This document shows positions 57,918 to 58,078 of a stretch of DNA of 64,000 nucleotides, one piece after another. This stretch comes from Volutella citrinella. Its lineage: Eukaryota > Ascomycota > Sordariomycetes > Hypocreales > Nectriaceae. Under the pieces are notes generated by a model that searched no databases, was not told where the DNA came from, and saw only the letters and a program-made list of their open reading frames with translations. The position numbers and the translations under genes were made by a program. Each line of letters begins with the position of its first letter. Position 1 is the first letter of the stretch. The stretch is from assembly GCA_034401135.1 (NCBI GenBank), contig JAWZSP010000006.1:2108001-2172000 (forward strand). Reading direction: 5' to 3'.

Positions 57918-57924
57918 AAAAAAA
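57918..57924 (-). terminator. Pol III terminator of the initiator tRNA gene
   Basis: On the minus strand a run of seven T lies 27 bases after the tRNA 3' end. It is the usual RNA polymerase III stop signal and supports Pol III transcription of the tRNA gene. Confidence 0.75.
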
Positions 57925-57951: not shown

Positions 57952-58078
57952 TAGCAATTGCACGTTTCGATCGTGCGACCTCCGGGTTATGAGCCCGGCT
58001 GGGATGAATTAGACTGATGTCCTGGATAATGCAGTGGTGAAGAGGGAACATACCGCGCTTCCACTGCGCCAAATTGCT
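57952..58078 (-). tRNA. Initiator tRNA-Met (CAT) interrupted by a 55-base non-canonical intron
   Basis: Reading the minus strand, exon 1 (58078-58054) is AGCAATT, T, G, D arm GCGC-AGTGGAA-GCGC, G26. Exon 2 (57998-57952) is anticodon arm CCGGG-CTCATAA-CCCGG, variable AGGTC, T arm GCACG-ATCGAAA-CGTGC, AATTGCT and A73. The four stems contain 7, 4, 5 and 5 perfect Watson-Crick pairs. Eukaryotic initiator hallmarks are all present: A1:U72, three G:C pairs at 29-31/39-41, A54 and A60 in the AUCGAAA loop, and no separate U54. Box A (TGGCGCAGTGG) and box B (GATCGAAAC) are intact. The mature length is 72. The 55-base insertion lies between 26 and 27, not at 37/38, so standard tRNA finders may miss the gene. 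Confidence 0.92.
57999..58053 (-). other. Spliceosomal-type intron inside the initiator tRNA
   Basis: The minus strand reads GTATGTTCCC at the 5' end, has TCTAATTC about 10-15 bases before the 3' end, and finishes CCCAG. These are a 5' splice site, branch site and 3' splice site like those of the protein-gene introns in this window, and 55 bases is a typical length here. Because G26 precedes GT and the insertion ends in G, the border can slide by one base (GTATGT...CAG or GGTATG...CCA) without changing the tRNA. It separates box A from box B without damaging either. Confidence 0.8.

Follow-up and report, generated by a model that had tools for sequence, protein, structure and literature searches.

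Nuclear tRNA splicing is, in textbook accounts, a protein-only process carried out by an endonuclease and a ligase, and the endonuclease introns of fungal nuclear tRNAs are located between positions 37 and 38. Spliceosomal introns are known from fungal U6 snRNA genes, and the founding reports are said to be those of Tani and Ohshima in 1989 and of Canzler et al. in 2016. Fungal U3 snoRNA genes carry mRNA-type introns as well, and an excerpt of the 2017 paper that describes them states that, among small structured RNAs, frequent interruption by an intron was so far known for U3 snoRNA and U6 snRNA only (PMC5832005). Eukaryotic tRNA genes are described, in an excerpt of PMC8450103, as limited to one intron. 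Noncanonical tRNA introns at unusual sites of the tRNA body are presented in excerpts on nucleomorphs, in which the inserts measure 3–24 nt (PMC4090602), on red algae, with tRNA genes disrupted by introns of the bulge-helix-bulge (BHB) type (PMC3978253), and on archaea (PMC8450103).

Among the PMC matches listed, judged by titles and the beginnings of abstracts, there was no report of a tRNA gene with a spliceosomal intron, nor of an intron in a fungal initiator tRNA-Met (iMet) gene; preprints and most subscription papers are located outside PMC. PMC gave no match for the exact wording 'spliceosomal introns in tRNA' and similar phrases, or for an initiator tRNA intron in Hypocreales. Neither interrupted nor ascomycete-like iMet patterns were found in viral or bacterial/archaeal contigs, as distinct from fungal collections.

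The initiator tRNA gene of the window

The window, i.e., the whole stretch of 64,000 nucleotides that was analysed, contains an iMet gene whose parts are listed in Table 1. The original prediction had located a 55-nt insert between tRNA positions 26 and 27 of this gene, and its coordinates were exact, with the gene lying on the minus strand. The perfect initiator fold described for the sequence after removal of the insert was also confirmed: a reading of the spliced form gave 21 Watson–Crick pairs (7 + 4 + 5 + 5) and no other stem pairs, A1:U72, GGG/CCC flanking CUCAUAA, an AUCGAAA T loop and A54/A60. The spliced form thus presents the features of a eukaryotic initiator tRNA-Met, namely the cloverleaf, A1:U72, three G:C pairs next to the anticodon loop, the CAU anticodon and A54/A60. 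ARAGORN reported tRNA-Met(CAT) when the insert was removed, while with the insert kept and introns allowed the gene was miscalled as tRNA-Gly(CCC) with a 35-nt intron. In its bacterial mode ARAGORN reported no tRNA in the window, and no Rfam family matched the window at the gathering thresholds.

The GTATGT, CTAAT and terminal CAG that had been pointed out in the insert are present at the positions given in Table 1. The combination of GTATGT, CTAAY and YAG in the layout of the insert occurred in one of the 127,880 55-mers of the window (both strands), which is the insert itself. The sequences TGGCGCAGTGG and GATCGAAAC within the gene are taken by us to be A-box- and B-box-like.

Table 1. Position of the iMet genes, their parts in the window, and the tRNA-Pro(CGG) gene L138. 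C1, C3 and C7 are contigs of the host assembly.
Feature	Position	Strand	Remarks
Initiator tRNA-Met gene (iMet locus 1)	window 57952..58078	-	72-nt mature part + 55-nt intron; spliced form called tRNA-Met(CAT) by ARAGORN
Exon 1, tRNA positions 1–26	window 58054..58078	-	invariant in 5/5 iMet copies
Intron GT...AG, 55 nt, between tRNA positions 26 and 27	window 57999..58053	-	from sequence and five-gene comparison
5' splice site GTATGT	window 58048..58053	-	invariant in 5/5 iMet introns
Branch-point-like CTAAT	window 58008..58012	-	branch A 10 nt from intron 3' end; CTAAY in 5/5
3' splice site CAG	window 57999..58001	-	5/5 iMet introns
Exon 2, tRNA positions 27–73	window 57952..57998	-	invariant in 5/5 iMet copies
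A-box-like internal promoter TGGCGCAGTGG	window 58061..58071	-	read from sequence
B-box-like internal promoter GATCGAAAC	window 57964..57972	-	read from sequence
Seven-T run, Pol III terminator-like	window 57918..57924	-	sequence
iMet locus 2	C7:313909-314033	+	insert 53 nt
iMet locus 3	C1:2560045-2560168	+	insert 52 nt
iMet locus 4	C1:2560414-2560542	-	insert 57 nt
iMet locus 5	C1:2555801-2555925	-	insert 53 nt
tRNA-Pro(CGG) gene L138	C3:2077834-2077983	+	called Thr-CGT with a 77-nt intron by ARAGORN

Initiator tRNA loci in the genome

The genome searched was the host assembly (45.1 Mb, 26 contigs), which may be incomplete, and the searches score the best candidates only. In two protein searches with host sequences the highest-ranking named matches came from Sodiomyces, Sarocladium, Phaeoacremonium and Clonostachys (68–70% identity) and from Fusarium (55%, with Aspergillus species ranking high as well), which we take to indicate a position in the Sordariomycetes, close to Hypocreales/Glomerellales. 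The intact 127-nt iMet gene used as a query (whole assembly, E <= 0.001) revealed five loci on three contigs. All five carry an insert of 52–57 nt at position 26/27, and their mature sequence is the same (71 letters, 72 with the discriminator A). The copies other than that of the window, which the original prediction had left to a genome search, therefore all share its structure. An uninterrupted iMet gene, which it had named as a possible other source of the tRNA, was sought in the assembly with the 127-nt query, the spliced 72-mer and near-match searches, and among the best candidates scored none was found. It had also reasoned that splicing would be a prerequisite of translation initiation should every copy carry the insert, and all five iMet genes found do carry it. 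Neither an assembly error nor chance explains the insert, because it recurs in five of five iMet genes with diverged insert bodies, and both origins were rejected.

When introns were allowed, the five iMet genes were named by ARAGORN as Gly-CCC (two), Val-AAC (two) and Pyl-CTA (one). On C1, at about 2556451 (+; L009) and 526 bases beyond iMet locus 5, there is a shortened copy of the first iMet exon, AGCAATTTGGCGCAGTGGAAGC, which ends before the intron position is reached.

Conservation within the inserts

In the alignment of the five iMet genes all exon columns are invariant, while the invariant columns of the inserts are exactly GTATGT, CTAA and CAG. When GTATGT, CTAA and the final AG are set aside, pairwise comparison of the inserts gives 166 identical letters out of 404 (41%). 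The distance from the branch A to the 3' end of the intron is 10, 10, 10, 12 and 10 nt. All five introns therefore show what is expected of the U2 type: a GT 5' end with extended consensus (GTATGT), the branch motif CTAAY 10–12 nt before the end, and CAG. Consensus folding of the five genes yielded the cloverleaf and, in addition, three weak pairs at the ends of the insert with no paired change, so that essentially no conserved intron fold was detected by this method. As invariance within the insert is confined to the splice-site and branch letters and the fold is not conserved, selection seems to maintain the signals for the spliceosome rather than the structure of the intron. The same invariance lends support to the spliceosomal removal proposed in the original prediction. 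However, as the copies are related, their agreement should not be counted as five independent events.

The A-box- and B-box-like sequences are intact in the iMet genes, and a run of at least six T occurs within 45 nt after each of the five, compared with about 0.5% of the sampled window positions having T6 within 45 nt. These T runs are as expected for Pol III terminators, and at the level of sequence features the iMet genes thus carry the A and B boxes and the T-run terminator of a Pol III tRNA gene.

Comparison with mRNA introns of the host

The host intron set consisted of 52 frame-bridging GTRNG...CTRAY...YAG candidates collected without gene models from about 203 kb of nuclear sequence in which the iMet genes were masked. 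This set is noisy: some of its members are different ends of the same intron, others are there by chance, and controls that lack GT bridge the reading frame about equally often. Frame bridging gave no separation between GT-YAG (2363/28106) and GA-YAG (2720/34385), and the addition of CTRAY did not separate them either (265 versus 275, 179 and 294 in three controls). The 5' hexamers, among them GTAAGT and GTGAGT, are the one feature that stands out.

Within this noisy set the candidates measured 44–85 nt, the commonest branch-to-end distance was 10, and CTAAC or CTAAT was found in 22 of the 52. Their 5' sites were mostly of the GTAAGT and GTGAGT types, and GTATGT occurred in 1 of the 52. GTATGT was found close to branch motifs 13 times, compared with one far occurrence, and up to five of the 13 are the iMet introns themselves. 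In length and in the geometry of the branch the iMet introns agree with this rough and noisy sample of 52 candidates, in which their 5' site is uncommon. The comparison with mRNA introns made in the original prediction is therefore to be qualified: in this sample length and branch spacing agree, and GTATGT is rare.

Other tRNA genes and the Pro-CGG gene

In a first survey with ARAGORN, 54 distinct tRNA sequences were obtained, 34 of them with an intron (33 of 2–31 nt and one of 77 nt), and at the ARAGORN boundaries none of the 34 introns started with GT and ended with AG. The anticodon loop is the only place where ARAGORN seeks introns, and the boundaries and some of the names that it gives are approximate; for this reason it cannot by itself exclude tRNA introns elsewhere. 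The nuclear loci that were read comprised 101 ARAGORN calls (74 distinct gene sequences), 57 of them with an intron. The pattern GTRNG...CTRAY...YAG occurred within the gene in 6 of the 101 calls, namely the five iMet genes and one Pro gene, which is the 77-nt case. The T-loop types GGTTCGAATCC, GGTTCGAACCC, GGTTCGATTCC and GGTTCGATCCC were listed genome-wide, and T-arm-like matches that lacked an ARAGORN call were read by eye. The resulting tRNA census is incomplete: it covers other T-loop types in part and leaves out 16 GGTTCGATCCC places and a few places in Glu-tRNA clusters.

The Pro gene, L138, contains a 51-nt GTAGGT...CTAAT...TAG insert within the anticodon in addition to a 26-nt canonical intron, and removal of the 51-nt insert changes the ARAGORN call to Pro-CGG with a 26-nt intron. 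A second Pro-CGG gene, L139 (C6:2773305), has a 26-nt intron and lacks the 51-nt insert, and the spliced L138 aligns with it without gaps. The anticodon stems of the two genes differ by paired changes, T28-A42 to A28-T42 and T31-A39 to C31-G39. A six-T run follows L138. With L138 as the query (E <= 0.001), only the gene itself and part of L139 were returned; Pro-AGG genes such as L089 were not returned, although their bodies are similar to that of L138. In L138 a spliceosomal intron appears to have been gained within the anticodon, alongside an endonuclease intron of the same gene.

Two tRNA-like sequences with unusual loops (L093 and L164) were considered as further cases and dropped, as no GT-branch-AG was visible by eye. 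Several other observations were made during the reading. Two tRNA-like sequences at C2:4637040-4637490 (L095) have the T arm and the acceptor end in common; one is called Ser-TGA with a short variable loop by ARAGORN and the other is uncalled. Two related regions, C2:2124609-2124884 (L143) and C2:2128825-2129100 (L144), contain repeat units resembling CTTCATGGGTGAAAA, together with a T-arm-like match that is not called as a tRNA. A mitochondrial-looking, tRNA-rich genome of 37.6 kb is present once in C26 (37643 bases) and, judged from sizes and repeated tRNA positions, apparently twice in tandem in C16 (75286 bases).

U6 and U3 RNA genes

Three U6 loci were found in the genome. Two of them, L084 (C2:4256403-4256508, minus strand) and L085 (C3:5044332-5044432, plus strand), are uninterrupted and U6-like with a deviant conserved core, having UAGCAUUUCCCC instead of UAGCAUGGCCCC. 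The third, L086 (C4, about 4223855-4224062, plus strand), carries UAGCAUGGCCCC, and its match at 4224003-4224062 scored 43.2 bits, just under the gathering score of 44. With exon limits set by eye, its layout is GAAACGAT, a 50-nt GTACGT...CTGAC...CAG segment, the middle exon ACAGAGAAGAT of 11 nt, a 56-nt GTCCGT...CTAAT...TAG segment and TAGCATGG. This U6 gene is thus apparently split by two spliceosomal introns, and as introns of fungal U6 genes are known, it would serve as a genome-internal precedent for a Pol III RNA being processed by the spliceosome. A B-box-like sequence, GGTTCGAAAACC, is contained in the first intron. The two U3 genes matched the full-length model within 266 and 268 bases, i.e., they lack an intron.

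Interpretation of the insert

We consider the insert of the window to be a U2-type spliceosomal intron in an initiator tRNA gene transcribed by Pol III, with a probability of roughly 0.9. Spliceosomal removal is much the best explanation because five related genes combine the same exons and diverged introns with a strict GT-branch-AG, to which the independent Pro insertion, defined by its paralogue, is added. Both the splicing and the Pol III transcription are inferred here from gene sequences.

The explanation that survives next best assumes that the insert, as an ectopic tRNA intron of an unusual kind, is cut out by the tRNA splicing endonuclease, as in nucleomorphs, and that GT, CTAA and AG are coincidental or otherwise used. 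The noncanonical tRNA introns outside fungi described above lend it some plausibility, and in the GT-AG register of the insert three of the four central-helix pairs of a BHB are possible, two of them G-U. Against it, only the splice-site and branch letters are invariant across five diverged inserts, no intron fold is conserved, and the inserts interrupt position 26/27, away from the canonical 37/38 of fungal endonuclease introns. The pairing check at the insert borders gave 0–2 of the three pairs of the BHB inner helix; however, the canonical intron of L139, used as a positive control, failed in the same way, and for this reason the result was not used as proof. Removal of the iMet inserts by the endonuclease is disfavoured, and we regard it as very unlikely.

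It is more improbable still that the five iMet loci are broken genes, with the tRNA coming from an uninterrupted iMet gene that escaped recognition. The possible incompleteness of the assembly and the scoring of best candidates only leave some room for such a gene. Nevertheless, the spliced 72-mer, even at E <= 10, returned just ten pieces, which are both halves of the same five genes, and a reading of all the 33 places that match GGGCTCATAACCC with at most one mismatch revealed a tRNA context at the five iMet loci only. Moreover, identical exons over five loci on three contigs, together with retained splice signals, would be unexpected for broken genes.

Group I and group II introns possess a catalytic core and measure several hundred nucleotides. 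A self-splicing or a mobile element inserted at a tRNA site is barely conceivable as an explanation: a group I intron has been reported in a cyanobacterial initiator tRNA gene, but the iMet inserts of 52–57 nt are far below group I/II size, the Rfam search of the window gave nothing at the gathering score, and at E <= 0.001 the intron-bearing iMet query reached only the five iMet loci and the Pro query only itself and part of L139.

With spliceosomal removal as the preferred reading, Pol III would produce an iMet precursor with a 5' leader, the intron and a U-tail. As in the case of the fission yeast U6 snRNA, recognition of the short intron by the spliceosome would proceed through intron definition, and the intron would leave as a lariat in the nucleus, after which the joined RNA would fold into the initiator tRNA. 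The cytoplasmic supply of initiator tRNA would then depend on the spliceosome, and therefore so would ordinary translation initiation. In the Pro-CGG gene L138 two introns would have to be taken out, the ordinary endonuclease intron and the spliceosomal one that splits the anticodon. It is likely that in this lineage the whole cytoplasmic iMet supply is made only via the spliceosome and that tRNA genes are, as a class, open to spliceosomal introns, including an anticodon case that needs both splicing systems.

If this is true, the spliceosomal introns in all iMet genes would represent an added class of tRNA intron, and translation initiation would be directly dependent on mRNA splicing, with a possible control point from splicing capacity to protein synthesis. 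Introns of this kind would also result in missing or misnamed annotations, such as the ARAGORN calls of the five iMet genes. As finders that expect introns in the anticodon loop only would overlook such tRNA genes, more may be hidden in other fungi.

Comparison with known systems

Fungal U6 snRNA genes resemble the iMet genes in having short, mRNA-type introns within a small Pol III RNA gene, but U6 is no tRNA. The fungal U3 snoRNA genes, as presented in the excerpt cited above, share with them a small structured RNA with mRNA-type introns; the host is, however, a snoRNA and not a tRNA. The canonical nuclear tRNA introns, many of which are present in this genome, have a nuclear tRNA host in common with the iMet inserts, whereas the latter are located at 26/27, outside the anticodon loop, carry GT-CTAA-AG signals and measure 52–57 nt. 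The nucleomorph, red algal and archaeal introns likewise occupy unusual sites of the tRNA body, but in the excerpts they are described as BHB/endonuclease introns or as inserts of 3–24 nt, while the iMet inserts are of the GT-branch-AG type. The iMet case would thus border on both the spliceosomal introns of U6 and U3 and the endonuclease introns of tRNAs and fit neither as described, the former having other host genes and the latter another position and other signals. What is new would be the class of gene that hosts the spliceosomal introns, and not the mechanism as a whole.
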